NCBI GenBank assembly: GCA_009869945.1
Contig: WIXG01000330.1
Coordinates: 23,384 to 87,383, forward strand
Length of the DNA: 64,000 nucleotides
Direction: 5' to 3'
Source of the DNA: Mesaphorura yosii
Taxonomy: Eukaryota > Arthropoda > Collembola > Poduromorpha > Tullbergiidae
Shown: in pieces, positions 3,031 to 53,800 of the stretch
Layout of the letters: each line of letters opens with the position of its first letter
Position numbering within the stretch: position 1 is the stretch's first letter
Translations under genes and position numbers: made by a program
Notes under the pieces: generated by a model
Told to the model about the DNA's origin: nothing
What the model saw: only the letters and a program-made list of their open reading frames with translations
Databases searched by the model: none

Positions 3031-5791
3031 TTAAAATTTCTTGGACAAGTCTAGAAGACTGTTCGCTTCACGGCTAGGACCGAGCCTGGAAAATTTACTT
3101 AAAATGTTAAACACAGCACTGTCAGAAGCTCGAACGTGGCCGGAATCTTGGTGTTCATTAATGCGGTATCTCAGAGCCTCCGCCTGCTCGACCGAGTTGC
3201 TAGCTGTCTCAGGTGAAGAGGGAGAAGAGTACGTTTCGAAAGGCGCGTTCAAATTCAGATACCGGCTCAGACTCTCTCGCAAGTCAGACGACAGGGGTAG
3301 ACTGTTCGAGCCTTCCCCTCCTCCAGCTGCATGACTCTCAGACCTTTCATCATGATTTGAAGGCAACTCAGAGCCCGACAAACTACTGTCAGGGCTTGAC
3401 CTTTGCGTTGACTTCGGACTTGCAGCGCCTCCTTTTCTTTTCGGACGCCGAAGCAAATGTCGCTCCTTGACCTTGTACTCCAGAGTTGAATGAGGAACTC
3501 CAAAGTAGCTTCCTATGTGTTTACCATTATGTCTGGTTAAGTTCTTAATGCTTGAGAGTATTTATCGTTTATTACCTGCCCGATGTACGCTCATCTCTCC
3601 ATTTTGAACGGCCTTCACCGCTTTCAGGAGCGCATCTCGATCGTAATTCCGGTATTTCCCGCGTTTTGGGCGGCTTTTCTTCTCGTCGACATCCGCAACG
3701 GATTTATTGGCAACATTTTGACCCGAACCGGCAGCTTCATGCCTGAGTTCACTTGTACTCACGCCATTGGAATTCACTCCGTTACTTGAGTCGAGTTCCG
3801 AGTCGTAGTCGTAAGCAGAATTGTAGTCAGATTTTAGCTTCTTCCAGGAACCTGCGCCATCCACACGGTGAGTCGGAGTTCTGAAATGTATGAAATCGAA
3901 CATATTGAGTGAATGGCGAGCCACGTCGGATTGAGAGTTCAATATTTCGCTTTTACCGCATGCTCATTTGGACGCCGCCATTTCTGTTACTTCTCAGACT
4001 TCTCGAAGTCGACTTGTTGTTTACAGATGGAATTTTGAGAATTGTGTCATGAACTCCGTTCGAGATGTCGCTATTCCCGTCTTCACTGCTATCATTGGGA
4101 CAATCTGCCGCTCCATCATTTGGCAAGAACGATGTGTCTGACCCAAAACCCTGCCTGGATAGTTTACTTCGAAGCCACTCCTTTAGCACCTTCTTTTGGG
4201 GACTGATCGCCTCGCCCGGACTGTATCCCTCTGTCCCATCCTCTCCGTTATCATTGTTTGGATACTCGTCGTGAATAGAGTAAAATGGTGCCAGGTTTGT
4301 ACTTATTCCAGGATTTCGGTCTTCAAAATCAGCTCTTAAGGAAGGATGCTCAGCCAAAATCCTTTCCTGGACATTCAGAGGACTATTTGGCATGTTGGAG
4401 TTGACCTCCATCATGTTGACCCTTTTCCGGTCCCCGCCTCCGCGAATGAATGCTCGATCCTTCCCCAACTTGTAAACCTTGTTCCGCAAAGTAGAACGTG
4501 GGATTCCATAGATCACTGCAGCACGCCTAAAATCAAAGATTTCAATTATTTCTCTCTGGATTGGGCAAAGAAATTAGAAAATGGTGACAAACCCTAACGA
4601 ACCCTACCTCGTGCCTAGTTTTCCACTCTGAATATCCTTCAGCGCCGCCTCAAGTTCTTCACTTGTGTACCCTCTTCCTGCTCTCTGATTTGATCTTGTC
4701 ACAACTCTGCTCGTCGAACTACTAGACGCATTTCTTGCGCTTTTTCTAAATCCATTTTCAGTCAGATCGTTGCTAGTTTCTATGATGGGGAGCGTTGAGT
4801 AATTTCCTTGTACAATCTCGTTCTCCACATTTCTAGCAAACAAAGCAGTAACGTCTATGAAATTGATAAGAGGTTCAACACTTCAATGAAAATCCGCTCA
4901 CTTTTTTTTCTTAGTCAGATCAAGAGGCTCGTCTGAGATGGATTCAGTTACTAAAAGACCTTGAGGAATGGCTAAGTTCACACCGGCGTTTGATTCGGAA
5001 CCGAATTTTGAGGTAGAAAAGCTTCTAGCTGCTTCTGTGGGGGCCTGAAAAGAAATCAATACAGTTTGAGAGTCTGTATACTTCGAAGTGGAATTTAGCA
5101 AAAACGTTTCTTACTATAGTTTGTTGTGCTAGCTGCTGCTGCTGCTCCAATGACTGTAGAAATAATAGACGCTGCGCATCTAGCATTTCAAGCATGCTGT
5201 TGTTAAGATTCAGTTGGTTGAGCTCTTCTGGAATGGCATTGTCAGTCGGAACTCCGGGAACCCCGAAGCCACGGTTGAAGAAGTACCAGTACGGCAAGAA
5301 ACGAAACAAGTTTTCCAAAATATCTGAATCAGAAATTCAGGAATACAGTCTGAACTGCGAAGTTTGGAAACTGCCAAGAGACTAACCATTCTTGTCCTCG
5401 TTCGTTTCTTCTTCGGTTGTTTCGGACGGATCAATTTGGGAGTCCTGCGAACAAAGCGGGGATTTAATCGACTCGTTAATTGCAGAGCTCGAGTTTGCAC
5501 AAGACCCCGACGCCATTTCAGCCAACTGATCGGCAAGGTCAGATGCACTTGACGTACGAGTGAGTTTGTGTCAGAGGTCTGTCTCGGTTAGACTGCACTG
5601 ATCAACTGGCAGCATAATTGGTGAGATTTGGGGATTAAAACACAGGAATGTACGTACATTTGCTTCTGGTTCTTCGGACACTTCAGTTGGGTCAAAATCG
5701 GAAGCCGTTTCCTGAAGCCAAACTTGTTGTAGCGGATATATTTGTTCCCATTTCTCTTCGCCAACCAGTTCTCTTCCAACGCTCTCCAAGC
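3031..5791 (-). CDS. Eip93F: E93/Mblk-1-like pipsqueak-type transcription factor (5' end incomplete)
   Basis: Ecdysone-cascade nuclear transcription factor (family knowledge: E93/Mblk-1 in arthropods, LCOR in vertebrates). Minus-strand exons by splice consensus and phase: 5791-5658, 5547-5387, 5323-5115, 5044-4902, 4832-4608, 4526-3957, 3880-3576, 3512-3031 (about 742 codons from the first listed exon). The sequence shows a CtBP-type PLDLT motif followed by a lysine run at the end of exon 5044-4902. A first HTH-psq domain has GYTSEELEAALKDIQSGKLG joined to RRAAVIYGIPRSTLRNKVYK. A second has GKYRNYDRDALLKAVKAVQ joined across a 63-nt intron to GSYFGVPHSTLEYKVKERHL. The region DILENLFRFLPYWYFF is also characteristic. 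The start codon was not found. In the most 5' exon only one frame (AWRALEENWLAKRNGNKY) splices in phase to the next exon, so that exon is less certain. Divergent from hexokinase. Confidence 0.92.
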
Positions 5792-8700: not shown

Positions 8701-10003
8701 CGAAATCTGCCTCCGCTGCATTTCCGGTGACGATTCTTCGTAATCCTATGAATATCTTGACGAAGGGCTCGTACTAGAGAGGGACTATGAACCTATGACT
8801 TTTGATTTACAAAGGAAGAAGAAATTGAGACATTGCACTTGCATCGTTTCCATGATTTCATACTGGTACGAATTTGGGATTTCCCTCTCGAATCTTCCGG
8901 TCCGAAACATAATAGAATGTTTGAAATTTGACTCTGGTATTGAATGATTTGTTTCCATGTTCCAGAAGCGGCGTGATGGCCTGAAGTGCGAATTGTGAAG
9001 CGACGTCAGAACGACCACCATCCACCAGTATGTGTTGTGTTTTGTCGTTCGGTGTAAATGAACGGAGTCTTGTGACGTGTATCCGCAAAGCAGCAGCCGT
9101 ATCTAAACACAGATACCCGGAAAGTTTCTCTGAGCATGCCGTCGATTCATCTTGTGGCCATGCCATGCCGAAGTCAGCAGACCGGACTCGGTTTGCGTGT
9201 GCAATTTTTACGTAAAATTATGTAATGCGTTGGTTGAAGGCGAAGAGCACATGCTTGAGGAGGATCAGCTAAGAAGTAAAAAATCAATGAGTGTGACGTA
9301 TCAGGGAAAGTTTGGATGTGCAAAACCCCAAATATTCGCATCATGCACACGTCGTGGCTGAGCATGCGAGGCAGTGGGGGAAGGTGTGTCGGTTCTAGCA
9401 CCCGCCGTACGAGGTCTAGCTCGCCTACTACGGAGTCCAGTCCAGAGTAGTTCGTTCCTTCGCGCTACGGGTCTGTCTACTGCTTGCTGTCTACTACTAC
9501 TCACCAACTTACTACTAGCGAGAAGATACTACTACAAAAAGCATCAATCAGTCCCACGTATTGTTAGTTGTGAAAAGTACGTGATATTACTAATATTTAT
9601 TATTGTGCTCTCGAGTTGTGATGGCCATGAGCTAACCCCGACAACTTTTATACGTCGTGTGCTAGTATCCAGTCTGACGACGAGTGGTTCATTTGCCTGC
9701 TAATAATGTAATAATCGTGAAATTGTTAACTCGAGTTTATAGTCCGCTTTACTTTACAATTGGACGCAATCTCGCGAGCTCCCTTGAAAGTCTCATTCTG
9801 AGTTGGCTGTTTGTACACAGTTTGTGCTCGGCGTAATAAATACACCGTTCAGCTGTGCCTCAGATTCCAGTTAACGTTTGATTTTTCAACACTTCTCAGT
9901 TCTCGTCTCAGTTGCAGTCATAGTTTGTTTCGTCGTTCGTTCACACTTGATCAGAAAACCCAACTCGCCTGAGCCACATCCGTTGCAGTCGCAAGTCGTC
10001 ACG
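5792..10003. other. 4.2-kb region between E93-like and hexokinase genes: missing E93 5' exons and hexokinase promoter/5' UTR
   Basis: The two flanking genes diverge, so this interval should hold both promoters. No complete gene is visible. A minus-strand open stretch at about 7186-7410 is preceded by a T-rich AG acceptor and encodes a Gln/Ala-rich tail from the CAG/CTG run. It is a candidate E93 5' exon, but its link to 5791 is unproven. A minus-strand open stretch at 8858-9166 has no recognised domain. A plus-strand open stretch at 9374-9703 is probably hexokinase 5' UTR or promoter sequence. CTACTA-rich microsatellite-like sequence lies at about 9490-9535. Confidence 0.45.
7218..7241. repeat. 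CAG/CTG trinucleotide run
   Basis: About six tandem CAG units on the plus strand. Read on the minus strand in the open frame they give consecutive Ala codons after a short Gln run. Such runs are common in arthropod transcription-factor exons, which is one reason to consider this a missing 5' exon of the neighbouring E93-like gene. The repeat itself is certain; the coding role is not. Confidence 0.75.
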
Positions 10004-13000
10004 ATGTCGTGTACCATCACAAAACAGGTAACAAAGCCAAATTCAAAATTTGTGTCATGTCAGAGTAGGCAGCCATAATTCTTTGCAGAGAATTGTTTTA
10101 TTTTTGGAGTCATCAAGTGACGATGACGGTTAACTCGGGCAAAACGAGTTGCTATTTATATCTCATGTACATAGCATTATGTATACCGCACCGAACGACT
10201 ATGATTTATTAACACCGGGACATATTAGCTCCTTCGTTACGTAATGACGAGCGCGACCGCGTGTTGGGCACATTTTCTAAGTCATCGTTTGAGACTAGGA
10301 AGTCGGCTTGAAATGTGTGCTGTTAATTACGTGATGGCATGGCAAGCAATGACGCACGCATGCTCATAACCGTTTGTGCATGCACCGTGTACCAATTTCC
10401 TTATTCAGAAGACACCGAACCCGAAACCCAATTTCCGATTTGTGCTACTTAAACTCGTAGTGAATAAAGGTCGTAGACTTTCAATGGCTTCGCCGATTCT
10501 CTTGGATGATTCAAAACTGAAACTTTTATAGTTTACATTGCGCGACACGAAGTGTTTCCAGTTAACATTCATAAAAGGCATGTACTTGTCTTGTTCATGC
10601 CAACTCAGAATTCGACGAGTTTGACGAACGCGTGTGATGCCGCTTTCAGCGAGCAGCCTCATGTGCATGTACATATTAAGTTCGACTACAGTTAAACAGT
10701 GTCACTGTTTATCCTGGACGAAAGATGAAAGTTTCAGTTTCAGCAGCAACAAGCAACATGTTGACAAGGCTGACCTAATCGAGATCATGAGTCAGAGTCA
10801 AGTCAATACAACTCAACATGATAAATATTTATATCAAATTTCATGTTCAGATTTCTTCAACGCAGCGCAGGTCCCAGTCCAGTTTTGAAATATATTTTTA
10901 TTTTGAGAACTTCAATGTTAAGAAACAAAACTTCCGCTCAGTTTGCCTGGAAAAATTCTCTAATCTTTATCATGATGACGAAATACGATGGCTAATCATT
11001 CCGTAGTCTAAAAATACAGGGCAGGCGTTTTTCATGTCATCCATACTCGAAACCCTGGATGGAAACAAAATGCGTCTAAGATGACATTTATTTACATCAT
11101 ATCACCCTGTCATTACATCGAGCGTGAAATCATTCATCTATCACCAATCTGGAAGTTTGCATTGACATGACCACCGATGACTTCATATGTTGAATTACAC
11201 CGAAGAAGTACGACTTCCACCTGCCCGGCAACTAGCTGATGTCATGCTATTCTGCTGCTCTATTATAATAGGGTAGTAGTCGGATTGGAAAACAATAATG
11301 CAAGCACAAACGACAAGCATAATATTGTATGTAATAAGCTATAACTTGGCATGCGTTGCTAAATTGCAGGCCAAAATGCACTCATGACAAGAATTATTAA
11401 GTCATCGTGCGGCAAGTGCACTTCAAAATAATCAAAAGCGAGTAAAGTTAAGGTTTTAGACTGGATTAGCCGAATATCTCGAGCTGAAATGTGTCGAGTG
11501 ATGTCATGTCATGTTCTAGTACCCGCATTGCGAGTGCAACTCAAGAAGCCGTGAAACCCTGCAGTTCCTAGTTAGAAATTCCTTACTGTCATTTTAGAAC
11601 CCATTGTGACTTGGATTACGCACGCAAAATTTAACACGTAATTTCGATGTATTATTCCATACATGACAGCAGCACAACGCAGTAGTGCTCGATTGACAGA
11701 CAAATTCAGCACTTCTACTTGACGTGTCTGCTATCTGATCCTTTAATTGTACGACGTCATTCATTGCTCGCAGCTCGCACCCGTTGTAGTCGCATAGTTA
11801 ATGGAATGATGTTAATTTGGAATCACGTATGGACATAGTGGCATGCGTGATGAATTAACATTTACCTTAATTAGCATTATCATTTGGCATTTAAGGATGA
11901 GTTATCGAATGACATTTCATTTAATACCTAACCAATCGCCGAGCAGCCATAAAGTCAAAATCAGCCATTGTTGCCAAACAATAATTTTTTGGTGCAGGTG
12001 AGAGAAAAGACCAGCCGGCGGGTACGTCACATTATTTTTCAAGAGCATGCACCAGCATAATATAAGTAAATAAATGCGCGCCGTCGTCAATTTTACATAA
12101 TTTACCTTAGGCTTGCCTTTTAATCAGTAATCATCATACGTCAATCTGGATCAGACACTCATAAACTCTTCATGCTAACAATACAATTTGTATGCTCTGC
12201 TCTGAGATGACAAACCCCGCCTACGTTCACACACTGGCCCTACTCTTCTGCCGATTAAGGGTCTATAAGCTTCCGGGTGCTCAAACTTTTACACTTCCAT
12301 GTTCCGTGATTCACTTCCTCCATATTCGCAATGTGGCTGTAGCTTTACAGTGCTTGTAGTGTTCGAATACGAATGCGTATACAACAAGAATACTGAATTA
12401 CTTGAATCGAAGCGAGCTTGACGACTGACGTGGCTTGTCTTCTACACAAATTGTAATCAATCCTCTGTACACATTTTTTCTCTGCAGGTTGAGAAAGTAT
12501 GCTCGGAACTCGTGCTCTCCGATGAGACTCTGCACCGAGTCATGCAACTAATGCTCACTGAAACTGAAAAGGGTTTAAAGAAAAGGTCAAATGAGGAGGC
12601 GAAAGTCAAGTGTTTTCCAACATACGTGAAAGAACTTCCGAACGGAAAAGGTAAGCAAGTCGAGGACTAGAACGCCGCGTCGCACCAAACCAAAGCGCAA
12701 AGTCATCATTCAGCAGAGTGATCTCACGAATGACACTATCATGGCTCAGAAGATTAACTGGTTGGATATCAGTATCAGCAGATTTATTCGGAATGCACGG
12801 CCATGGCCTGTGAACCATGTCCATTGTTATTTGTCAAATGTGAATTAATCTTTCACTTTCAGAGCGCGGAAAATTCCTAGCCCTCGACCTTGGCGGTACC
12901 AATTTTCGTGTCCTTTTGATCGAGCTGGGTGGAGACAATAAAGCGCCGTCGAAATTTAAGATGCAATCGAAAATATTTGCAGTGCCTCAGCACATTATGT

Positions 13001-16000
13001 TGGGTCACGGCAAAGGAGTGCGTACCAATTCCTTCAATGCTTCCAAAGTGCCGTGGTACAAAGTGCTAAAATTTGGTGTTTTGTATTTTTTTCCAGCTAT
13101 TTGACCATATTGCTGAATGCCTTGCGACTTTTGTTAAGGAACACAACGTGTCTACCGAGAAGCTTCCATTAGGATTTACGTTTTCATTTCCATTGAAGCA
13201 GGAAGGGTTAACCAAGGCCAGACTGGTGACGTGGACGAAAGGCTTCAATTGTGATGGTGTGGTCGGCGAAGACGTGGTGCGACTTCTGCAAGAAGCCATT
13301 CTGAGACGAGGAGTAAGTCACCTCGAAAGTCTTTATTAGTGTCATCATCATTCGATCATACTTACTCGGCATAAAATAATTTCTTTGAGTCCACACTAAA
13401 ATTTCAGCAAGTGCATTTTTCCGACTCATGCAGAATGGCTTCCAGGTGTCCTTTAAGAAATGAAGAAAATCGTTTTTCGCTTCATTCGAGCCCAGCCTCG
13501 AGTGTTCTAATCGTCTGAATTGAGATGTTACATAACGTAAATAATTAAATAGGTAGCATGCAAGCAGACGCGCGATGTGCACGTGCAAATTGAATCAAGT
13601 GAGAATTCCAATGCACAAAGGCAATAGTACTTATTAAACCTAATATGCGACTATATTATCAGATGGTAACAGAAAACTGGACACTGTGAATGAGACGTTA
13701 TGAGCCCGTGCATAGCGTTATGGCATACAGACTCGTAGTATGTGTGTTGGCCAGCATAATTGTCCAGTATCTCTTATATTATGCACTTTCTGGAAAGGAC
13801 ATTGGAATAGATGTACTGGCAGTCCTAAATGATACCACTGGAACCCTCATGTCGTGTGCATACAAAAATCCAAACTGCCGAGTCGGGCTAATTGTTGGTG
13901 AGAATCTTGTTCGTGTTTAGCTAGAAACGTTTAGCCGAAAAGAGGAAGAAGTGAGCCGCATGAGCCGCATGACCCAAATAATTTGCCATTTTTTATGATT
14001 TTGCTGCTTCTCTTTGCCCCTCACATGCAAATTATATCACAGACACACGAAATCTCATTAAATTCTCGCGTAGCGCGCAATTTTCGACAGCATTCCTGTG
14101 AAACCTGATTTAGAATGGTCACCGTGGAGCTAAAGAACACATCACGATATAAAAGTCACGCGATGCGCACGCTTTTGCGTGGCAGACTGGCAGATTGGCC
14201 AATGTAAAATTTTTAGGAATTGAACGCAGAACTGGTCGTCTAATTATTTTTGTAAATTGTCTGATTATTCACTACTCACTCAATTATTTCCTTATGTTTG
14301 TTCATTTATTATGTAAAGGAGTAAACCAGCTTTGTACAAGTATTTTTGATTTTTAGGACGTACAAATTGATGTTTGTGCTATTCTGAATGATACAACTGG
14401 AACCCTAATGTCATGTGCATGGTTAAATCCGAACTGTCGTATCGGACTTATCGTCGGTACGTAATTCATCACTACATTCATTTATCTCAAGCGAGCACAG
14501 TGGATTTTCCTCTTCCTTCAATTCTTACGGTGTACCCTCCATTGTCTCATTATTCCCGTTTTCTCTTTCCGTCTTGTCTTCTATAATCTGTCGCTTCACC
14601 GTCCTCGATCCGACCGATTAAAATTGTGAACAATCAGGGGTTGAATGTGACTAACAGCAAATGTGTTCTCCAACTGAAAGTTTGGCCATTTCCCAACCTA
14701 ATCACTTGTACGTACATGTATTTATTTAAATGCTTAACTATTTAAATGACTTTATTACCAGAATTTATGCTTATCGCTGACTAACATTAACACAATGTGT
14801 AGACTAGAATAGACTCCAACGCTTCTTTACTGTTTCTGTGATGCTTTTATTTACAGACCGCTTTTCATACTGCTAATTGTGTCCTAAACTGACTTTAGTG
14901 TGAAATGCTTGTTAAAGGAACTGGAACTAATGCGTGCTACGTGGAGAAGTTGGAAAATGTGGAGCTGTGGGACGGGGACACCAACGAGCCTAAACAGGTA
15001 CCTTTAGAACACAAAATGCCTAGCCTCCTAAGTAAATGTTGGATTTGAAAGTGCTTTAACACTAATCTTAGCATTGCCATCAGGTAATTGTGAACACGGA
15101 GTGGGGTGCATTCGGCGACAACGGTTGCCTAGACTTCATCTTGACGCAGTACGATCGCGAAATTGATACAAGTTCCATCAACCCGAAAATGCAATTGTGA
15201 GTCTCAATTCACTCGTATTGTAAACGAAGGTTGTGTGAAGGCTATACGGAATGCCTCTCGTCCCTTGCAGATTCGAGAAGATGATCTCCGGAATGTACAT
15301 GGGAGAACTCGCAAGACTAATTATTGTCAAACTAACCAGTGATGGGGTCTTATTCGGTGGTCAGGGGTCCGACTTGCTATTTCAGAAAGGAAATTTTTTT
15401 ACGAAATACATTTCTGAAATTGAAAGGTGAGAAATGCAATTGGAAAACGGTGACTTTGAATGGTGGCGTAATATTTTGACTTTCTTGTTTGGGAAAATAG
15501 CGACAAACCAGGGGAATACACAAATTGCCGACAAATTCTTGAAGAACTTTGTTTGGCTACAATTACTGCTCAAGATTGCAGAGATGTGCGATACATCTGC
15601 GAAGTTGTATCCAAACGTGCAGCTCAACTAGCAGCTGCTGGAGTGGCTTGTTTGTTGGACAAAGTGAGATTTCTTTTCATAAAGAAAGGTCCGAGGGTTT
15701 ATCCATTATTTCAACTTTTAACCCTGTATTCGCAACTGTTTTACAGATGAACGACAAAAGCGTGGTTGTCGCTGTCGATGGTTCTGTATATCGTTTCCAC
15801 CCTCATTTCCACAATATGATGACTGAAACCATTCAAAAATTATTGGAAAGCAAAAACCCCGACATAAAGGTAGCCAATTCGATAGTTCGTCGTCTTGTTC
15901 CGATTTGGGATTAGACACTGTCATTTCATGTACGCATCTTTCTCATTTCAGTTTGACTTGATGCTGTCGGAGGACGGAAGCGGTCGAGGCGCGGCCTTGG

Positions 16001-16029
16001 TGGCTGCCGTGGCATCTCGTAAGCGGTGA
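10004..16029 (+). CDS. Hex: Hexokinase, single-domain, with alternative exon 5
   Basis: ATP-dependent phosphorylation of hexoses in the cytosol, first step of glycolysis. Exons: 10004-10027, 12488-12650, 12863-13017, 13097-13312, then either 13798-13897 or 14357-14456, then 14918-14997, 15084-15196, 15271-15426, 15501-15663, 15747-15869, 15952-16029. Either choice of exon 5 gives 456 residues, the expected size of a 50-kDa single-domain enzyme. Visible motifs: nucleotide-binding [13 protein letters not shown] (residues ~68-80), sugar-binding [10 protein letters not shown] (~137-146), catalytic Asp in NDTTGT (~198), [10 protein letters not shown], and the C-terminal small-domain segment [16 protein letters not shown] followed by [12 protein letters not shown]. 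Intron 1 is 2.46 kb and interrupts the gene after only eight codons, so alternative first exons are possible. All junctions are GT-AG and in phase. Convergent with the CPEB gene. Confidence 0.96.
13798..13897 (+). CDS. Hex: Hexokinase alternative exon 5a (catalytic Asp exon, upstream copy)
   Basis: Acceptor ...GGAAAG before GAC, donor G|GTGAGA; 100 bp, entering in phase 0 and leaving one base. It encodes [16 protein letters not shown] then [18 protein letters not shown]. It carries the catalytic Asp of the hexokinase active site. Because 100 is not a multiple of three, splicing 5a to 5b in one mRNA would shift the frame, so only one of the two can be used. Confidence 0.85.
14357..14456 (+). 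CDS. Hex: Hexokinase alternative exon 5b (catalytic Asp exon, downstream copy)
   Basis: Acceptor TTTTTAG before GAC, donor G|GTACGT; also 100 bp with identical entry and exit phase to 5a. It encodes [16 protein letters not shown] then [18 protein letters not shown]. By my count 27 of 34 residues match 5a (the last Gly is completed by the next exon). The substitutions cluster just before NDTTGT and just after LMSCA (Tyr-Lys versus Trp-Leu). Both copies keep the active-site Asp and look functional. Confidence 0.85.
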
Positions 16030-16109
16030 AATTTAGCTTCAAGTTAATTTTAAGATAAATTTGACCCATGGCACGATACGACAGTTGTATTCAATGCGAT
16101 AAAGATCAG

Positions 16110-16115
16110 AATAAA
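16110..16115 (+). terminator. Hexokinase polyadenylation signal AATAAA
   Basis: AATAAA on the plus strand 81 nt after the hexokinase stop. This is the first canonical signal downstream of the gene and would give a short 3' UTR. Confidence 0.6.
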
Positions 16116-19100
16116 CAGCCATGAATGATCAAACGATGCAGATAGTACGATAGTATTAGTATCAAGCTGTTCAAGTAAGACTAAAAGATACTATTGATAA
16201 GAAAGTAGCTATTTTGCAATATATAGAGAAATTGTACGAATAATTCGACCGCCTACGAGTAAATAATGATGCAGACGTCGTGATTGTTGAGTAATTTTAG
16301 CCAAGTGATACGAAGGGAGGACTCTATATGAACGATTTCTTCAATATGATCAACGCATACGTGGAATTCTACTTCAAATATTGTCTCGTTTCGCTTTTCG
16401 AGTTGTGGGATTTAGTTAAATGAATCTGCAAGGTTTAGAATCGACTCTGCCATAAGCTTTTATTTTCAACTGGAGTTTTGTAATTCCGAGTTCCAGCTAA
16501 CGTGTAAAGTAATCACGAGTTCATCAAACGTTGTGTTCGGTTGTATAGTTTTCTTCAACTGCTATCAGAGAATACTTAGGCCAGCAGAAGTGTATTTTAT
16601 TTTGATACCAAGTCGAATTTGTGAAACTAAAACAATTTAGACTGACACTGTAATAATATAGCAGACTTCTAGTGATCATTGTATCAGAAAATGTGTGCAC
16701 GACTGTTACTTAGTAAATAATAAAGATGCAGAGCGGATTCGGAGACAGGATATGACCGACCCAGTCCACGCATGGCCTCGCAGTTATTTTGACACCCGAC
16801 ATTCCATTCGACAGCATCATTTCTTTGCTTTCACGAATGCAGAATTGGAAAATGCAACGACGGTTTCTAGATTCAATGAATGCGAAGTACATAAATTCGA
16901 TATTTGCTACAGCATTGATTTATTGAGAATTTTTCATCTTTGATGTCAAATCTCAAGGCTACCTTTTTGTTTAATCTTCGTTCTACATGTACACTTATAA
17001 TAAAGTGAGAAAATTACAACAATAACACACATTGTAGCGCTCAAGATGACCTTCCAGCCGACTTGATCCGATGAATTAGACAAACGACAAAGATAATAAT
17101 ATTCAAAGATTCATTGTTATGGTAGTACAAATGACTTACAAATTTCTTACCAAGTCGTAGATTTATAAATGACTAAGTATGAAAAATTGTGTGTGCAAAT
17201 TTTATAGAAGATTGACTAAAACACGAGAGTTAGAAAACCGAAACAAATCTGCGAATTTGCATGGCATGTTAATATGGTAGTAAAAGTCTTTGCACGTAGT
17301 ACTGAAAGTCAAAAACTATCTCAATTTGACTATAAAGTTAAGACTACTAAAAAAGTATCAAACTTCCTGATTATTTCCGTCTTATGGTAGTTAGCATAGT
17401 AGCACCTCTCTCAAATCACGTGTCGTTTACTCATGCAATAACGACGTAAAGTAAAGTCCAGTTGCCACACTCCACAATTCTAATGTTACGATTAGTGTAT
17501 TACAATAATAAGGTTGAATATGCACGCAATAACTCCCTAGACGAATTACGACGGTCATTCGTTAGATTAGAAAGCTATGGCTTCAACGCAGTAGTCAACA
17601 ACTTTAGAGCTAGAAGGAATAGCAAAATACGTACCACTACGCCCACCCACGACGAATACGAGCTAGTTTGGTTTGGATGAATAAGATCACACGGTTTTGC
17701 AACGATCTTCCACCGATCGGTGATTCATGGCAATGGCTGATTGCGCTTGCTCGGTGATTAACAAAACTTACAAAAGTGATACTTGCATATAAAAGTTAAC
17801 AGTACAGCAGATCCACAAATCATCAAAATTGGCATTCGTCATTTCCTGCGCCTCATCCTTCCAAAGGATATGCACTTTCACTCTGCAGTTTGCAGCAGAT
17901 TCCTTACTCCATTACTACACGCTTAGTAAAGTACCATTCGGTAACCATCTTGGATTGCTTTGCTACACACCTAGTTAACGTTGTAAGCTACCATACTCGT
18001 CGCAGAAGAGACAAACATTATTACTGTGATAGTCCGAAATCTCATAATATGTTAAAATTAATGATGAACAATCGTGTAGTAATGAGCCATGTCACGTGCT
18101 TTAACATTACACAGTATTATAATGACTGACAATACTTAGAATTGTAATAGTCTTTAACGCCCTATGAAGACATGTAAGCACAATATTTTGGTAATCAAAA
18201 TTCGTAGTATTTGAACAATGACGGCATTCGAATTGCAATTGTTGCAGTGGCTTCGACTGAGAAGTCCATCTTGCATAAAACGATTCTGCTTGCAGTTGTC
18301 GCATTCGACACAAGCGCAGCGTTACTCATCTACATTCCTGCAGTTAGCATCTTCCTTTAATAACTTAGACAAAATTGTTCTGCATATGGGAAAATGGGGA
18401 AAACTTCCAGAAATGGCTACACGTTCTCAATCATTCGGGTATCTGCACTGGACAGGCTTCTACCTAAAAAGTGTTCAAAAGTCACATTTGAGACCGACAA
18501 GTTTCTATGTAGAAAATAATATGACTTTCCTCCTTAATGCGACTTTTATAACGAAACTGCTCCCATTACAATCGCAAGCGGTGGCCAGTTAAGCGAAAAC
18601 GAGTGTCTGATACAATCATCAATCTTTCCATGTGAGTTTTCGACAAACTGGTTCTCTTCTATAGTTGTAGAGTCGTTGCATTTGCAATCTGCTTGCTATC
18701 CGCGTTATGAAAATACCTCAATCAAGTGCCGACTGTTCCTAGTTGCTTATCAGTGGGAGCGTAATAACGTTAAGACTTACAAGTAGTTTTAACTTGTCGT
18801 ACCGGAAGGGTACGTGCAAGCATTGGTCATTCTTACATCAATATTGTTCCGATTGCATCCGTGTCTCATATCTCACACTTATTGTTTAAAAAAAGTGGAA
18901 AACAAAGTGCTAGTTATTGTATTCGAGTGAAGAAGTGTCAACAACGTTAAGATACTAAGTATACTCTGGCATGACATTAATAGTTGGCTGATTGAAGCAA
19001 TCACAATAATGCATGTAATAACGTGTAAAACTACCGAACCGTGGCAATCTAATTAGTTTTCGTAGACATTTAGATTTAGATGAAGCGTACTCTAAATACT

Positions 19101-20695: not shown

Positions 20696-23508
20696 TTACC
20701 GAAAAGGCAAAGACCTGGGACGATCAGCACCTTCTTTAACTAGTGGTTTGTGATATTCTCGTCCTGAGCGCGAGTGTATAGTAGCCCAGCAGTGCTCGCA
20801 GTAGTACTAGTGTTCAAAACATTCAAGCGTTAGCATTTGCGATCATTTCACCGGAATTGCTCTAGAATGTTTAGTAAATACCTGCAGACAAGTTACGTTT
20901 GCACAGAAAAACGGAGCGAACTTTCCTCCACATCTTCCTCCGCCGCACTCGTCGCAAAGTTGATCATCCAGAACGTACGGTTTCACCTCGACCTGACAAT
21001 GTACAAGAGGACACACATTCAGTAAGGAAGCAAAATGTTTTATCCTTGAACTGTTTAGTAACTGCAACGTCCAAGACATTTTTCCTCATACGGTCATAAG
21101 ATTTGAAAGCAGATGAATAGAAAATCGAAATCATTACCCGCTTGTCAATATCACCATGCTGGAGTTGAACAAACCGAGCGGATATAGCAGCAATGTAGCT
21201 TTGTTGATTTGAAAAAGCTACTCTTCCAGCTCCCTTTGGATATTTCAATTCAGGATCGGTGTCAATGCCAGCATAACAAACGCCTCCATACAGACGATCC
21301 ATGATCATAGCAAGCTCGACTGAACAAACAAGGACGCATAGGCTGAGTAACTTCAGAGGCTGAAGAAGAATTCGTCTGGCCACTGCATTGATAGTTGTAC
21401 GTGTATCTTACCTGCTTTCAACGGGCGTGGAACTCCACCAACAAACACAGTTTTTCGAGGATCTAACGGCATTGATGCATCCAAAACAAAATCTGCATCC
21501 GAAAGTCTCCAGGGTCGAATCTGTACAGGCTTATCCTTAATAGTTGGTGACGAGACACAAAGATACAGCTTGTCATCATCTTGAATGCAAGCATCAATCA
21601 ACTGCTGTACAGAACTTTCCTCCTGAAGTCGGAATTCGAATATTAGTTAAGAAGATTTGAGTCAAATACTCGTGTATTGTATAGTTAATTACCTGAAATA
21701 ACAAGAACGCATATCCCTTTGGAGGGAAGTAAGATTTGCTCTCCGCTTTATGAGGCCAATCAACAACTAATGGACCAAAGCGTCTGAAGCTAGCAGTTAT
21801 CTCTTCTGCAATGTTAAATATTAGTTAGCAGACGTAATTTAAATTGGGGTGATTGGCAGATTTAATTTCAGTTATTTCGTATTATCAGCAAGGAAACGAA
21901 ATGTCATTAGCACAAGCTCACCTTCATCAATGTCTGGTGGCAAACCACCAACGAACACCTTTCTCGAGAAACGCTCATTGCCATCGACGCCTGAACCAGC
22001 ACCAGCCATTCCGACAGACATTCCCAATCGCGGTGATAAGCTAGTTACAACTGTTGCAGCACCAGTTTGATCAATTTCATCCAACAGAAAGCTACCTCCA
22101 CCGGAAACTACGTGCTCGTCTCCCACAGTTGCATAATTCCATTTGGCTACAAATATAATGCAATAAAGTGATGTCATGATACACTGGTAACACGTCGTAT
22201 GGAAGATAGGTCCATTTGACTTTGTCCTAGAGCCCCAGAGCTGTCGAGGCCACCATTAGGTGTGTGATCTTACCAGCACGGTTGTCCGGTTCACCGGTTC
22301 TCATCATCTCAGATAGATACTGCTCCAAGGAACGCATATTATCAAGAGGCCCAGCACCATTACGCTCCTAGGAATAAATGCCAATTTCATGTTAAATAAC
22401 ATTACTGGAAATTCACAAGTATCATAATTTCTTGCTAGCCTGCTTCCATTATCATTGAGAAGAAAACACGATGCACAGGAAAAGTGGTTTACCTGGTAAA
22501 GCTGATCTGGCTCGGTACCAAGTCCAACATTATCAAAAGGAGCTTGAAATCCTTTTCCGGTGAAGCCCCGACGAAACGATGGCTGCATCATCATGCCAGG
22601 ATTTGGTTTACTGCAAGTGCAAATAATAAATGGAAATATTACTCACTTGTCATCGCCGTCACTACAGAATTGTTTCTCGGGTTTCTGTTCCGATAAACTT
22701 CTTAAATTGAAAAATTACAAATTTCACTTGCTTTCCAAGTTGGTTTGGCTAATATGTCGTGCACTGTCTCAAGGCCTAACCGAACATATAAAGATTTTCT
22801 TAATTTTGACTTTGAAATGTAATTATGCACCTACAGACGTGCATAATCGAAACCTTAATTCAGTATTGAGGCTCGGGTCGAGAAAAAATAATGTAAAATC
22901 ATCTAAATTTACCCATAAAGAGAGTTGCCAGTCTTCAGCCCTGGTCTCATTTGCTGTCTCGGTTGATAGCCAAAATTCGGAGGAAATCTTCCTAATCCTG
23001 CACCAGCACTATTCACAGCATGTCGTTGGTTTTGCTGAGGAAAAGGTGACCTTCTCGGAACATACGGCCCATTTTGTGTCATTCCTGAAACATATGTACA
23101 ATTAATAAGGAGCAGGGGAAGAGATGACACAAATAACTTACCCAAGTTTGGAGGAGGTGGTGGACCGTAGTTTTGATAATAGAAGCCATTTTGTTGGAAA
23201 CCCAGCGTCGAGTTGAAGTAGTAGTTGTAGTCCTCAGTTCCTGGTGGTGGTGGTGAAGCCCAAACAGGTGCTAAGTCTGGTGGTCCTCCGATCGAACCTC
23301 CAATAGTCGTGGCAGCCACAGTGGAGAGTCCACTGATGCTGGATGTCGTTACGATTCCACCGATACCATTGCCACTCCCCGCGACGACAATATTGTTTCC
23401 ACCGCTTAACTTTAACCCAATCTCATCATTGTTGGCGACAGCAGCACTGTTACTCTCTGGCGTTGAGGTTGTAGAATTGAGCTTGAAGGTATCATTCTCT
23501 TCACTCAT
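20696..23508 (-). CDS. orb2: CPEB2/3/4-type cytoplasmic polyadenylation element-binding protein (Orb2-like)
   Basis: Cytoplasmic mRNA-binding translational regulator. Minus-strand exons: 23508-23142, 23084-22913, 22610-22493, 22367-22274, 22146-21922, 21805-21693, 21622-21412, 21319-21138, 20992-20882, 20806-20696; 567 residues, closing in frame. The N-terminal ~300 residues are low-complexity (Gly/Ser/Thr/Pro-rich, with PPPPP runs). RRM1 starts at KVFVGGLPPDIDE (~residue 312) and includes GPLVVDWPHKA and KGYAFLLFQ. RRM2 starts at RKTVFVGGVPRPLKA (~418) after the CPEB2-4 hallmark VQIRPWRLSDADFV. The C-terminal ZZ-type zinc domain shows the Cys pairs CDECGGGRCGGKFAPFFC and YYCEHCWATIHS, then KPLVKEGADRPR. 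RRM and ZZ content places it with CPEB2-4/Orb2, not CPEB1/Orb. The start chosen is ATG at 23508; the frame is open to another ATG at 23556, so a 16-residue extension is possible. Confidence 0.95.
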
Positions 23509-45109: not shown

Positions 45110-45832
45110 TTACCTCAGCTCATTGTAAAGTTTTCTCAGATCCGGACCCAAGTAGGGTGCTGTGTCATTGTAAAACCCTCTTGGACATGCACACTTGCGC
45201 AGCTCCATCAAAGGTTTTCCTTCGTTTGATATCTCCTTTTCAGCCATCTCTGCTAATTTAACTGGGATGTAGTAATTGCACTCGGGTTTCTCGTTGGAAG
45301 AATTGTACGGTGGACTCAGGATGTCTAGAAACGCTGCGTAGTCGAACTGGTCGTTTTCTCCTTTCACGTAGTCCAGCTGATGATAGTTCCTTTCGTTTGG
45401 TGTGAGAACCGCAACTGGAGAGGAAGAATTTAGAAGGCTCTGCTCCTCGTGCGCAGCGACTTGAAACGAGCTCAGGCTTTTCACTTTTGTGTAGCTGGTC
45501 AGTTTCATTTCGCCACACAATACTTTGATGAAGCCAAACATCCCGGGATGGTCGTGCAAAGGAATCTTGGCATTTCGATGAATGACGAAGATTCCGATGG
45601 TGAACAGCGGATGATCAAATACGTCGATGTAAGTGACTGGTGGCCGTTTGCCTTCGTTCGTGGCTCGCAGTTCCAAGCTACCGTGCAGGTTTATGTCCGA
45701 TGCGCCGCATTTGCCCAGCAATTCGCGAAGCTTCTGCTGGTCGGACGTGGACACAGAAAGCTTCGACGGTGACTTCGAACTTCGAGTAAACACGTCGAAA
45801 GCTGAGCGAATCAATAATTCAATGCAATTCAT
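45110..45832 (-). CDS. ADO: 2-aminoethanethiol (cysteamine) dioxygenase, ADO/PCO-type
   Basis: Non-haem iron thiol dioxygenase that oxidises cysteamine and, in animals and plants, N-terminal Cys of proteins in oxygen sensing (family knowledge). An uninterrupted 240-codon frame, the only multi-exon-free gene in the window. The cupin fold is evident: FTIGIFVIHRNAKIPLHDHP then GMFGFIKVLCGEMKLTSY carries two of the three Fe-binding histidines (His93, His95). The third is expected at His151 in NERNYHQLD. The C-terminal family segment CACPRGFYNDTAPYLGP then DLRKLYNEL is also present. Length fits animal ADO (about 250-270). The start ATG is at 45832. Head-to-head with HYI at a distance of 1.3 kb. 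Absence of introns could reflect an ancestral single-exon gene (vertebrate ADO is also intronless) rather than retrocopying. Confidence 0.93.
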   Translation of the reverse strand: MNCIELLIRSAFDVFTRSSKSPSKLSVSTSDQQKLRELLGKCGASDINLHGSLELRATNEGKRPPVTYIDVFDHPLFTIGIFVIHRNAKIPLHDHPGMFGFIKVLCGEMKLTSYTKVKSLSSFQVAAHEEQSLLNSSSPVAVLTPNERNYHQLDYVKGENDQFDYAAFLDILSPPYNSSNEKPECNYYIPVKLAEMAEKEISNEGKPLMELRKCACPRGFYNDTAPYLGPDLRKLYNELR

Positions 45833-47123
45833 CCTTCTTCGTGGAGACCAAGTTGGCCCCTAGTTAATTATTGAGCAGAGAAATCCCCTTGTTACAAACT
45901 ACGCAAAAATATAATGGATAACGCAAATAGATTTTTATAACAAACTGGGATTTTTGCTTATGCTCTCACCTGAGACGGATCGATGCGAGTGAAGAATGTT
46001 TAGTTAGCTAGTTAGCTGTCGAAATAAAATCAATGCAGTCAGAAATCTAACAACGGTTATCTCTCAAGGTGAGATAACGATGAATCACCAAATTCGCTGG
46101 ACTGTATCAAGTATTTGGCAGATCAAGTGCAAGTTTGCTCATCCGTTGTCCGTTGTATCAGGAGTTCACTGAAAAATATTAGCCAACAGGAAAGGTAATT
46201 TAATAGACGATTATCATCGGTTAGGATATATCATAAAATGGCGAGCCTCTACCTAGTCCAACAAGTTGGTTTTCAAATTCAATGAAGAGAGTCGAATCAA
46301 TTGCAGTAAATTGTAAAATGCGGAATTAATTAGATACGCACTCGCTTTGTAAAACAGGCTAAGATATATTTGCAAGCTTTAAGTTAAAATCTGTTGTGTT
46401 GAAGAATTTTGAACGACAATTAACTCGGGGACAGCATTTTATCAGAGTCAAGACGAAATTGCAGCCATTACTCATACGACACGAACACAGAGGAAAGTGC
46501 CTTCGAATTCGAGGCAGAAATGCTCCAATGAGCTTTTACAAACTCTCAAATCTTCCTTTGTTTCTTGTGCGCAAAAAAATTAGTATTGGCGAATTAGTGT
46601 GTTATTAACTGCATTATCCTTATCCTAAATCCGTTCTTTTCTGAGACAAACTTCTCCGTGAACTTGACAGTGACGAGGCTCTGACCAACACACACAGGAC
46701 CGAGGCCAGGTCAAAGTTTTAAGCATTTTCTGTTTTCTGAAGGACACATTTGTAAATGTGTTGGCTTCTATGGATCCGTGAAAATTAATATCTGGGTTGC
46801 AATTTTATCTACGGTATTTGTATTAGTTATGATAAGTATGAAGCACTTGCTGGTCGCACGATCATACGGAAAGAAAGTCGACCGCTTGTTACACAAGAGA
46901 TATTCAAAAGGATTATGCAATCGTGTAATGAGAAACACTGAACACATGTTACACGTATCGTATGCACTGTTGTAAAGAGATCACTAAAAGCAGGCTACTG
47001 AGATCGTGATCGGGATTTGGACTAGACAGTAGATTAAGAGATGAAATTGATGCATGCGCGTACCATTCTGTAGTCAGCTGTATCTGATCCATCTGATTTA
47101 TTTTGTAGTGACAATTGTACGAA
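45833..47123. other. 1.3-kb head-to-head promoter region between ADO and HYI
   Basis: No coding exon recognised. Just before the HYI start, TTATTTTGTAG (to about 47107) looks like a splice acceptor, suggesting a 5' UTR intron for HYI. The adjacent in-frame TGA supports the annotated ATG. Confidence 0.45.
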
Positions 47124-48749: not shown

Positions 48750-50862
48750 TTATTTAGACATTATGAAGAAGACGAGGTAGAGGAGCCCAGAACCGAGCAA
48801 ATCACCCAAGGCTGTCAGGAAAGGAATAGCCGAAGTATCGGGATCTAAAATCAAGAAATAAACCTCTAATTTACAAGCACTTCAGGAAATGCTTTAGTTT
48901 GAGTCACACCTATTTTCTTAGTCCAGAGCCAATTGATAAGTATAGTGGCAACGTAGAGCAAGATGACGACCTGAATAAGCGCGGCTGTCAGGTAAAGAAT
49001 CAGAAACGTTATAGACAGTTGATCCTCACCGCCTGAAACAAAATATGTGACCGTGGTGAAAGTCAAGTGTCCCGGAAGGACGATAGCGAGTAACACACGG
49101 GCGGCGACCGAATTCACGCCTGCAAAATGCATTTGTTAACTGTATAAAGTATAAATGCTATCGGGAAAATAATGTGTGCTTGAAGTATTTGTCATTGCCT
49201 TGCTTGAAAAACACGCTCCAAGGAGAAATCCACACACTGGAATCTTTGCCGGAGGGTTTCTTGGCCAACTGTCCAATGTCACAATCTCTGTGAAGGGTGG
49301 TGGATATACGGCTGGCTTGCACGCTCACCAGGTTGCCACCTACTCCATTTATCACTGAAGATTTCCAACTAATTATTCTATGTCGAATAAATCAACAATA
49401 TTCCTACTTCTTACCCGGCTGATAAAGAGCTAGCTTCGGGAAGCTCGACTCTGCCATGTCAAGCAGAAGACCACCACCGCTGAAAGAAAGAAATTTAATT
49501 AGAATTGAGTCACGACGCTTCTTATTTGGTGCTGGACCCTTAATCAGGTTAATGAGCTAACCTACTGATGGACATTGCAAGGATGACTGGCGGCCAACCA
49601 GTTCTCAAAATTCGCCTAGTATAATCGTTCTTGTATGATATCCAAATCCATAGAGGCAGGAAGGCAAAGTAGGCTAAAGTGATAGTTGGAGCCAGCCAAA
49701 ACTTATCTTCTGAAATACCAGAAAGCACAAGGGTCGGTAAATTCGGGTACTTTACATGATCTGGAACAACGTCTTTCAGGTTCGGTTGACTGACCGACTT
49801 CTTCGTACAAAGTAGCTCCAAGCCAAGCCAGCAGGAACAGAGTGACCAAGTCTCCCAAACTGGCTGCGATCGGTGTGGCTACATTGTCGGGATTGACTTT
49901 CAGCTTCCGCGACAAGAGAATTACAGCAACCATTAAAACTCCTAATATGCAACTGGCGGATGCAGCCGTGAGGATGGAGCAAGCACACAACAGGAGGGCG
50001 TCGTCGAGCACAAAAGGACGCCCACATGCCACGCCCATTATGGTTGCGACAACTGAAGCCAAAAATCCAACCACGACGGCCTGGACCTGCCCAAGAGATT
50101 GACAATCGGAATGAGATCCTCCAGTTACAATGACCCGGCAATGGCAATTCAAGCAAAGTCGTCGAACCTGAGTTAAAGCAAGATTGCCAAATGCAATGTG
50201 AAGTTGCAAATGTGTGGAGTCAAAGTGTCCGAGATTGGCATGCGTTGAGAGACGTGACGCCAGCGTCATTTCGAGGTTCCCTGTCGCAAATTACTTAATT
50301 GTTGCAATGCACACCCAAATTGAAATACCCTTTTTGGACTATACCCTTAAGACCAAGAAGTGGAGTGACCAGCACCAAAAATTCGGGGATTTCCTTGAAT
50401 ACTTTCCAGTCCTACAATGTCGAATCAAATGTGCCGGCGCATGAGGATATTTCGTAATTGTCAATAGTTTAAGTATTGAGGTGCTACCTTCACACGATCC
50501 AGAAGCAGGCCGGCTCCTACCATGCCCATGCCGGCAATCATGAATGGCCCAAACACTTGAAGCAGGATGATGTACCATTTCTCGTGAGTTTTGAGATGAA
50601 TCAGCGAATCCCGAGAGTCGTAACTGCTGCTTTCCTTCAGCGAAGCAATGGACTCGGACCCATGAAACCCGTTTGGAGCCGCGCCGCTTATTTGGGCCTC
50701 AACTTCCGACTGATTCGTTAAAGTACTAGTTGTGAAAACTGGCGCTTCAAGTCCCGGCTTGACTGACAGCGTGGGAGTGGATGTGGGTCTGGAAATATCG
50801 GAGGGATTGTTCTTGACAGCATAGTCCTTGCCACTGACGCTTCCTCCGGAAGGGTTGTCCAT
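48750..50862 (-). CDS. SLC41A-type magnesium transporter, copy A
   Basis: Membrane Mg2+ transporter/exchanger of the MgtE-related SLC41 family. Exons: 50862-50488, 50411-50345, 50280-50168, 50086-49795, 49709-49562, 49479-49415, 49354-49199, 49119-48910, 48844-48750; 506 residues, typical of SLC41A1-3. After a ~95-residue Ser/Thr-rich cytoplasmic N-terminus come [92 protein letters not shown] and DTSAIPFLTALGDLLGSGLL. These are the hallmark repeats of the two MgtE-like halves, including the acidic/Asn residues lining the pore. The seventh intron uses a GC donor. Exon lengths 67, 113, 148, 65 and 210 (split in B as 149+61) match copy B, so the two genes are paralogues in the same orientation, 3.2 kb apart. 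Confidence 0.93.
49120..49198 (-). other. GC-AG intron in SLC41A copy A
   Basis: Minus strand: donor CAAG|GCAATG at 49198, acceptor TTTTGCAG|GC at 49120, 79 nt. Joining gives FFKQ|GVNSVAARVLL, matching the family. The homologous intron of copy B has the ordinary donor GAAG|GTAATT in the same phase. Confidence 0.78.
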
Positions 50863-53800
50863 ACTTGTGCCCGAGATTTCTGCGTTTCACTTATTTCGTG
50901 CGATTAGCAATCCACTGCCTGCGAAAAAACGTGAGGATCCACATTAAACTCTGGGACGCCAAGTGCTTGCAATTGTGCTGAAAAAGTTTGAACCATTGAA
51001 CATGTCCCGTATACACTTCGCGTACGTCACGTCGTGACACATAAATTCCGTTTTTCAATAGAAATGCTAAGGTTGAGTAGGACTAATACTCTTGATAAGG
51101 TTGTGTCATGCATGACTCAACCTTCTTAGGTTGAAGGATTGCGATATTCGCAACTGGAGGCTGGTGCATGAAATTGCAGATTGTGCGTGCAAAAAGTGCA
51201 ACTCAATTGAAGGTCATAAATCGCGTACTGTTGACGTTCACGTCTCGCACAGACGTAAATTCGCATGGGTTCAGCAAGTCAATCGTTCACAAACTCATCC
51301 GGTGCACCCCTAACAGAATCAATCACGTTTAATCCTACTTGGCTCAATTTCGAACTTCGTATTGTTGTCTGGATAACTTCAGACAACAATACTCCACGTA
51401 GTCATAGACGTCAATTGACCGTCAAGTCAATTTCTTCAACCCCAATTGCACGCTGTACAGCATCACGCGCCACGCTCTACAGGATTTCACTCAATGCCGA
51501 TTGTCTTAGTTCTTTAACCAGGAGTAATTGACTGTAGCAATACCATAGGTGGCACAATGTTTAGATGTTTGAACTTACCAATCCGGAGAAATTGACTAAC
51601 CAATTAAGCCGGAATTAACATTTGCAGAAATCCACCAGACTCAAGACCTTAACTTTGTCTCACTCAGATGCACTCTTCGTGTGCATAGTAATACCTCTCA
51701 CTCATCACATTGAAGACTAATTGAAGTCATATAATGCTGTCGAACATAAAAGACTGGAAAGACTGACTCATTTCCACCCGCTAGAATAAAAAATGAAATA
51801 GACAAAAGACGGCAATGATATACGCGTTGTCTGATCAGCAATTCAAGGGAATATTTCATTGTTACATGACAAGTCCTTCGTGCAGTGCGCTTTCAAATTC
51901 TCTTCTGGGAAAAATTATGCAATGCAGCGAGCGACCTGAAAGTGTAGCCCCAATCTGTCCACAGAGTCCACACGATCGTGTCGTGTCAAGAGCAACTCCG
52001 TGGGAAACAAAAAGTGGCTTGGCAGGTATCGCATCAATCGGAATCAAGAATCGGTCGCTTTAACCACATTAACGCGCACGTCTCAAGGGCGTCAACGACT
52101 GCATTGCACTGCTACTGTGGAATGTACCTATCAGCATTCTAGCTCCAAAAATATTCTTAACTTCGATTTTTGAGTATTTTATCTTTCTCTGTACCTCGAA
52201 ATAAAGAATCTTAGCGCGAGCGCGCATTTGACGAACTAATTACCCAGACACAAACACGACGCGAGTTAAGGCATGCATTTGTATGTTGCATGTTTTTTCT
52301 CATCCACCATTAAGGATTCCGCGATAAATGCTTGCATGCTCAGAGATATCCAGGAACGACATAATAACAGAGATAAGAGCGACTTTCTTCCCAGACACAA
52401 GAAAAAACGTGGGTAGACTGATTGAGGAGCAAATTATATGCCTTAAAGTTGAACGTCTACACAAAATTAGGCACTGGCACCTTCTCTTCGTGTGTCACTC
52501 GCCCTTCAAGTCCAAGCGTTCAAATTGCAAGGCAATGGTGATGTTTCTAATAATTTCCCCTGGACATGACTGACTATCGATGCTACGATTTTTCAGCCGA
52601 CGATAAGCAAATACGATATAAATTTCTCACACACGACGATGATCAGTTTATGTCCTTGGAGCCTTGGGTCTGAAACCTGGAGACACAGCAGGCCGAGTGT
52701 CTAAAACTGATACGAAGCCTCCTTTGAGGATAAGGCAAACACACAAAAAACGGGCGTCGTGTTGATTTCTCCTCGGCACCAGAGACTGACACTGAAATGA
52801 AGCTGCTTCGGAAAGAAAAGCTAAATGGTCTCATGATTTGGAAGCGTGTCGAATCTCACCTGCAGTTTGCACTAATGCCATGCCTTGCCTGTTCCGAGCG
52901 TGTGAGACATGAAAATTGCTTACTAATGTCGACGACAATGGACAATAAACATTTAATGTTAAGCAATGAGAGTGTGCAACCTTGACGTGTGTTTGGCGGA
53001 ACCATAAATCCAGTCATTCAGTGCAGGGTAGAAACCAATTCCACTCAATGCAGTACGTGCTTCTAGTGAATGAGCGGAATTATTCACAGGCATCAAACTC
53101 GTAATGCCGCCGTCAATTGATTTCCCATTCACGAGCGAATGAATGTGCCCAAAGCCGAAAATGAAAACATGTAATTTTTAATATATTTTCATGCACATGT
53201 GAACAATGCAATGCAAATTGATTTTAGAATTTGTACTGGAACGGTCATCTTGAATTCTGAAGCCCAGTTCCTCAGTCATCCAGCTGGCAATTTTCAACCT
53301 GGAGAAATGACGCCATTTACAAAATGTACATGCAATTATGATCGTAGTGCTTTTATTCAACTCAGACGCGGATAATGGTTTCGTTACAATTCCGAACAGA
53401 ACAAAGCGAGGAGGATTAACTAACGATTAAACAAGAGCAGGGAAGAAGTACATTATATAAATGCGAATATTTTCTTTGGCTAAGGTAATGAACTATTTGA
53501 AACTGTCCAGATACATTGCAGTGCAGGGAATTAAGATTCTAAGAATACAATCTACACTACAAGCGGAAAAGGTGCGAGATCAAACTGATTGTCACATAAT
53601 TCGATGATGCTGATATAACACATTACTGCAGTTTACATCTATGTGATGCCTATAATAGTAACAACAATAACAGTCACAGACGATGGGCAGCACAATGATT
53701 GAATTTCATAAATGAGCAGAGGTCTCACAAACTTCCAGTTTCTGGGAAACACCTATCGATTCAGGAACCTAATCTTATCCCTTGATTATGGTCAGAAGGA

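Follow-up and report, generated by a model that had tools for sequence, protein, structure and literature searches.

A hexokinase gene with two candidate mutually exclusive exons for the catalytic aspartate segment

Vertebrates tune the entry of glucose into metabolism through separate hexokinase genes, and vertebrate hexokinase isoforms owe their variety to paralogous genes and to different first exons. Elsewhere in metabolism, pairs of mutually exclusive exons are found, such as exons 9 and 10 of PKM or exons 3A and 3C of KHK, a member of the PfkB/ribokinase family, unlike the hexokinases. The choice between 3A and 3C is reported to be tissue-specific, with the C isoform binding fructose with greater affinity (PMC6464065). 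The swapped region of KHK is described as adjoining the ATP site, with the catalytic residue kept in both versions, and the PKM exon swap as involving an allosteric-ligand residue (PMC9741552). In the case of OGDH, the choice between exons 4a and 4b reportedly tunes calcium sensitivity (PMC7969005). In coq-2 of C. elegans and helminths, the homologous 134-nt exons 6a and 6e are described as switching the core of the enzyme and altering its substrate (PMC7434440).

Here we describe a hexokinase gene from which the animal is probably able to make two forms of the enzyme, judging by a pair of homologous exons, called A and B in the following. The protein segment they encode is the same as that of exon 6 of human GCK. 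This GCK exon is also 100 bp long, and to our knowledge its segment is single copy in vertebrates. Variants reported in GCK exon 6 include Met197 and Tyr214 (PMC11382428). Among the literature matches listed, no case of hexokinase exon duplication or alternative splicing was found, and no word starting with ‘hexokinase’ occurs in the main texts of two studies on tandem-duplicated exons (PMC9741552, PMC9013439). It is possible that the hexokinase exon pair has already been annotated in the gene annotations of relatives.

Gene model and frame of the exon pair

The window, i.e. the whole stretch of 64,000 nucleotides that was analysed, contains a single-domain animal hexokinase gene on the + strand, whose exons were traced from 12488 to a stop codon at 16029. 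Exons were called by GT-AG boundaries preserving the frame, which gave nine constitutive and two alternative exons. The compactness of the introns hints at an animal with a small genome. The features of the gene are as follows:

12488..12650, + strand: hexokinase constitutive exon, 163 bp, the first one identified (GT-AG and frame; Pfam PF00349 on the spliced protein)
12863..13017, + strand: hexokinase constitutive exon, 155 bp (GT-AG and frame; alignment to HK1/HK2)
13097..13312, + strand: hexokinase constitutive exon, 216 bp, with the PLGFTFSFP and TWTKGF segments; its donor is common to exons A and B (GT-AG and frame; HK1/HK2 alignment)
13798..13897, + strand: predicted alternative exon A, 100 bp, 33 residues and a split Gly; acceptor weak, donor G/gtgaga (translation, frame, splice matrix)
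13898..14356, + strand: intron separating A from B, 459 nt, GT-AG, long enough for splicing (frame, splice matrix)
14357..14456, + strand: predicted alternative exon B, 100 bp, 33 residues and a split Gly; acceptor strong, donor G/gtacgt (translation, frame, splice matrix)
14918..14997, + strand: hexokinase constitutive exon, 80 bp; weak acceptor used by both predicted isoforms (GT-AG and frame, splice matrix)
15084..15196, + strand: hexokinase constitutive exon, 113 bp (GT-AG and frame)
15271..15426, + strand: hexokinase constitutive exon, 156 bp (GT-AG and frame)
15501..15663, + strand: hexokinase constitutive exon, 163 bp (GT-AG and frame)
15747..15869, + strand: hexokinase constitutive exon, 123 bp (GT-AG and frame)
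15952..16029, + strand: last hexokinase coding exon, including the stop (GT-AG and frame)

With either alternative exon alone, the spliced protein has 448 amino acids (start exon left out) and no internal stops. Isoform B matched the Pfam families PF00349 (3.3e-76) and PF03727 (4.3e-87), each covered almost completely, and isoform A could be aligned over almost its full length with HK1 and HK2 chains among the PDB sequences. Together with these two domains, a catalytic Asp in an (L/V)NDT motif and an LGGTNFRV motif place the protein in the hexokinase family. Over the alternative segment, A is identical to the four HK1/HK2 domains compared at 16-20 of 33 residues, and B at 13-18. In tblastn searches of the window with either isoform, every other exon was matched once; no copy of the alternative exon besides A and B, and no second hexokinase, was found (next-best matches E >= 2.8). 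A pattern search of prokaryote and viral contig collections returned 17 and 1 matches, respectively, with no relative among them, and Rfam gave 0 matches in the window at gathering thresholds.

Several other genes lie in the window. An ORF at 49703-50290 (-) encodes an MgtE/SLC41-type divalent cation transporter (PF01769, 9.3e-15). The ORFs at 50461-50886 (-) and 55921-56541 (-) have, by eye, a similar stretch in common, so that the transporter may be present in two tandem copies; Pfam gave no match for these two. At 45110-45859 (-), a 249-aa open frame, apparently a single exon, matches PCO_ADO (E 1.6e-36) and is presumably a cysteamine/N-terminal cysteine dioxygenase. Two neighbouring ORFs at 3562-4573 (-), each with a partial pipsqueak HTH_psq domain, resemble, as we assume, the ecdysone-response gene Eip93F/mblk-1. 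At 59614-61515 (-) lies a helicase gene whose product has HA2 domains (PF04408, PF21010), and the long ORF beside it, for which there was no Pfam match, is one that we take to be YTHDC2. The ORF at 21872-22255 (-) matches RRM_7 in part (2.2e-05; its 24.8 bits fall short of the family cut-off of 27) and is by eye presumably CPEB-like.

Regarding the exon pair itself, A and B are each 100 bp long, are entered at phase 0 and leave one base at the exit. They are thus adjacent homologous exons of equal phase and compatible length, with an open frame when either is used, as tandem-duplicated exons are. A first-pass annotation of this DNA had proposed them as mutually exclusive, and its coordinates, lengths and phases as well as its four proposed junctions were all exact on recheck. 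Its distance of 559 bp is correct from start to start, the intervening intron itself being 459 bp. Its count of about 27 of 34 residues in common was likewise reproduced (26 of 33, or 27 of 34 counting the split Gly present in both); a motif given there as ‘V/C-A’ was a misreading of L/C-A.

The same annotation had argued that inclusion of both exons or of neither breaks the frame, and this was borne out. Splicing in both A and B places a stop inside exon B, 724 nt upstream of the last exon junction, and skipping both places one 554 nt upstream of it. Double inclusion or skipping with such early stops normally marks an mRNA for nonsense-mediated decay (NMD). With premature stops this far ahead of the last junction, NMD would be expected to clear both kinds of product, leaving the transcripts with one exon or the other.

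Divergence and splicing of the two copies

The similarity between A and B is far beyond chance: peptide A scored 144 against 13898-14917, and the best of 300 base-shuffled versions scored 40. At the nucleotide level, 28 of 100 positions differ, distributed as 6, 4 and 18 over codon positions 1, 2 and 3 (p 0.0008). The Nei-Gojobori method (NG86) gave a dS of 1.86 and a dN of 0.167, thus a dN/dS of ~0.09 (bootstrap 0.009-0.28), an estimate based on 33 codons only and with dS close to saturation. When the same base changes were distributed randomly over exon A, a mean of 16.7 residue changes resulted. Seven or fewer residue changes were seen in 0 of the 20000 trials and a stop codon arose in 54% of them; neither exon copy carries a stop or an indel. 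Near-saturated dS together with the low dN/dS indicates that selection went on constraining the protein sequence of both copies for a long time after the exon had been duplicated.

The sequence around the exons was also compared. In the 200 bp before and after A and B, no similarity was detected (169 and 106 of 200 shuffles, respectively, scored as high), and in a blastn of 10000-17000 against itself the exon pair was the sole direct repeat. The pair is consequently neither a recent copy nor an assembly duplicate. That the second copy results from an assembly error or a haplotype duplication is hardly conceivable with a nucleotide divergence of 28%, mostly at third positions (18 of 28), and flanks that are dissimilar within 200 bp; nothing was found in its favour. 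Altogether, the third-position bias, the few residue changes and the missing flank similarity point to an old duplication, both copies of which have been translated during most of the period that followed.

To score the splice signals, a matrix was built from 8 donors and 9 acceptors elsewhere in this gene, and sites were ranked within 13313-14917. The acceptor of B reached 7.1 (rank 2 of 72 AGs) vs 0.4 for that of A (rank 23), and the donor of A 4.9 (rank 5 of 99 GTs) vs 3.2 for that of B (rank 16). With this small matrix, 22 AGs and 4 GTs in the region score above exon A's own sites. Thus, the earlier statement that both exons have good acceptors and donors holds for the two donors and for B's acceptor, and has to be corrected for the acceptor of A, which is weak. 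A weak acceptor does not imply disuse, because the nine constitutive acceptors of the same gene range from -5.5 to 8.9 in leave-one-out scoring. The acceptor of the constitutive exon following B (14918) is also weak (-3.2 when scored in this way).

These signals bear on the idea that one of the two exons, most likely A with its poorly ranked acceptor, is an unspliced relic of the old duplication and that only one hexokinase is made. We regard this as very improbable, given that near-saturated synonymous divergence is combined with a dN/dS of ~0.09 and that both copies have stayed free of stops and indels; moreover, A is slightly nearer than B to the HK1/HK2 domains, which is the opposite of decay. 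As judged by the sequence, the case for A and B as real, mutually exclusive exons is strong, and this reading of the first-pass annotation is supported by the frame logic, by purifying selection on both copies and by splice signals at both, with the reservation made for A's acceptor. We consider it highly likely that A and B derive from an ancient tandem duplication of the catalytic-Asp exon, that both were kept under purifying selection and that they are spliced in a mutually exclusive manner into two full-length hexokinases. Both would then be spliced in vivo, one per transcript. As the acceptor of B is stronger, exon B could serve as the default, and exon A would be used where a regulator assists its weak acceptor.

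Several mechanisms that could enforce the choice were considered. Neither steric hindrance nor U2/U12 incompatibility applies at this exon pair: the 459-nt intron is of GT-AG type and no U12-type donor ([AG]TATCCTT) is present in 12401-16100. What keeps A and B apart can therefore be neither a shortage of space nor a clash of intron types. RNA pairing gave no clear signal either, as no docking/selector pairing stands out between the introns. In detail, for three intron-intron pairings in this one species, 59, 5 and 57 of 60 shuffles were at least as stable. When segments at the splice sites were paired with the region, shuffles were at least as stable in 24 (donor A), 39 (acceptor B), 40 (donor B), 14 (exon-4 donor) and 23 (next acceptor) of 40 cases; acceptor A gave 0 of 40, with a pairing target that overlaps the acceptor A segment itself. 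When the hairpin over acceptor A was folded directly, 11 of 200 shuffles were as stable (z -1.68). Of the five sites folded it stood out most, though not clearly; the other four were matched by 44, 35, 147 and 77 of 200.

Two further features of the region were recorded. An inverted repeat of 15 nt with 87% complementarity joins 13402-13416 to 13781-13795 (duplex -16.8 kcal/mol, raw energy). The second arm spans the tract immediately 5' of exon A's acceptor, and the repeat could act as a mask of this acceptor. Additionally, the splice-regulator motifs GCATG and TTGTT occur four times each, with two TTGTT at or just past the end of exon A (raw counts only).

Residue differences and their putative function

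A and B agree in the catalytic Asp and its LNDTTGT motif, as well as in the stretches NPNC and GLIV. Seven exon positions differ (A/B): 2 I/V, 3 G/Q, 7 L/C, 9 V/I, 22 Y/W, 23 K/L and 29 V/I. In glucokinase, the catalytic residue is given as Asp205 (PMC10131484). With gapless HK1/HK2 alignments, exon position 12 thus corresponds to Asp205 and positions 22 and 23 to 215 and 216, a numbering that is an ungapped offset from Asp205 and not a structural correspondence or a residue-by-residue alignment of glucokinase itself.

The allosteric activator site of human glucokinase is described as comprising Arg63, Met210, Tyr214, Tyr215, Val452 and Val455 (PMC6661843; PMC4370448). The Y215A variant is reported, citing earlier kinetics, chiefly to bind glucose faster and to be mildly shifted towards the closed state (PMC10131484). 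Position 215 is Tyr in A and Trp in B; of the four HK1/HK2 domains, three have Tyr and one has Phe. At position 216, the four domains have Asp or Glu, and the isoforms have Lys (A) and Leu (B). The position equivalent to Tyr214 is Ala in both predicted isoforms, which means that neither retains the pocket in its glucokinase form. In liver fluke hexokinase, the Tyr214/Tyr215 positions are reported as Ala-Leu (PMC4370448), which indicates that the allosteric pocket varies among animals.

An intact catalytic motif combined with Tyr or Trp at the Tyr215 equivalent and a change at the adjacent 216 suggests that the isoforms differ in the balance of domain closure or in regulation rather than in chemistry. 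Both would then be active enzymes with different conformational tuning, hence different glucose affinity or regulation. The first-pass annotation had already proposed a difference in sugar affinity or regulation, an idea that is plausible and is sharpened by the difference at the Tyr215 equivalent. A simpler consequence is also conceivable: within glucokinase residues ~150-200, almost every substitution is described as reducing activity (PMC10131484), and with positions 2, 3 and 7 (195, 196 and 200) inside this stretch, one isoform might simply be the weaker enzyme.

Both exons could also be in use with equivalent products, the pair being kept by drift or for control of the amount of enzyme through NMD. 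This would fit the identical catalytic Asp and LNDTTGT, the conservative nature of four of the seven changes (I/V, V/I, Y/W, V/I) and the possibility that double inclusion or skipping acts as an NMD switch, but Gly/Gln, Leu/Cys and Lys/Leu are non-conservative and Tyr/Trp, one of the seven differences, falls on a residue of the glucokinase allosteric site, so that we think equivalence unlikely. Similarly doubtful is the most far-reaching version of functional divergence, in which a single gene would toggle between a high- and a low-affinity hexokinase by exchanging the exon for the catalytic Asp and for some of the segment that makes up the glucokinase activator pocket, and would sense glucose through splicing and not, as vertebrates do, through gene paralogues; Ala at the Tyr214 position in both isoforms makes such a switch less likely. 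The reading we prefer stays with two active isoforms that may differ in conformational balance.

Comparison with known exon pairs

KHK resembles the present gene as a sugar kinase with a mutually exclusive exon pair. The alternative exons of KHK are in frame on their own, so that it has no quality control by frame breakage, unlike hexokinase A/B. Like 6a/6e of coq-2, A/B is a homologous pair of equal length that is not divisible by 3. However, coq-2 encodes a polyprenyltransferase and not a kinase, and its transcripts, conservation and function have been shown, whereas the hexokinase pair is a prediction from sequence. Swapping A for B preserves the frame, and a C. elegans study describes the same for every mutually exclusive pair that it found (PMC13247117). 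In PKM and OGDH, as proposed here, an enzyme of central metabolism is tuned through a pair of exclusive exons, and exclusivity of OGDH 4a/4b is enforced by distant branch points. If the proposal is true, tissue- or state-specific glucose affinity would be placed under splicing control, and nature would provide an enzyme pair only seven residues apart, one of them at Tyr215, with which to test how this region sets glucose affinity. Hexokinase would then join KHK, PKM, OGDH and coq-2 among the metabolic enzymes tuned by exon choice.
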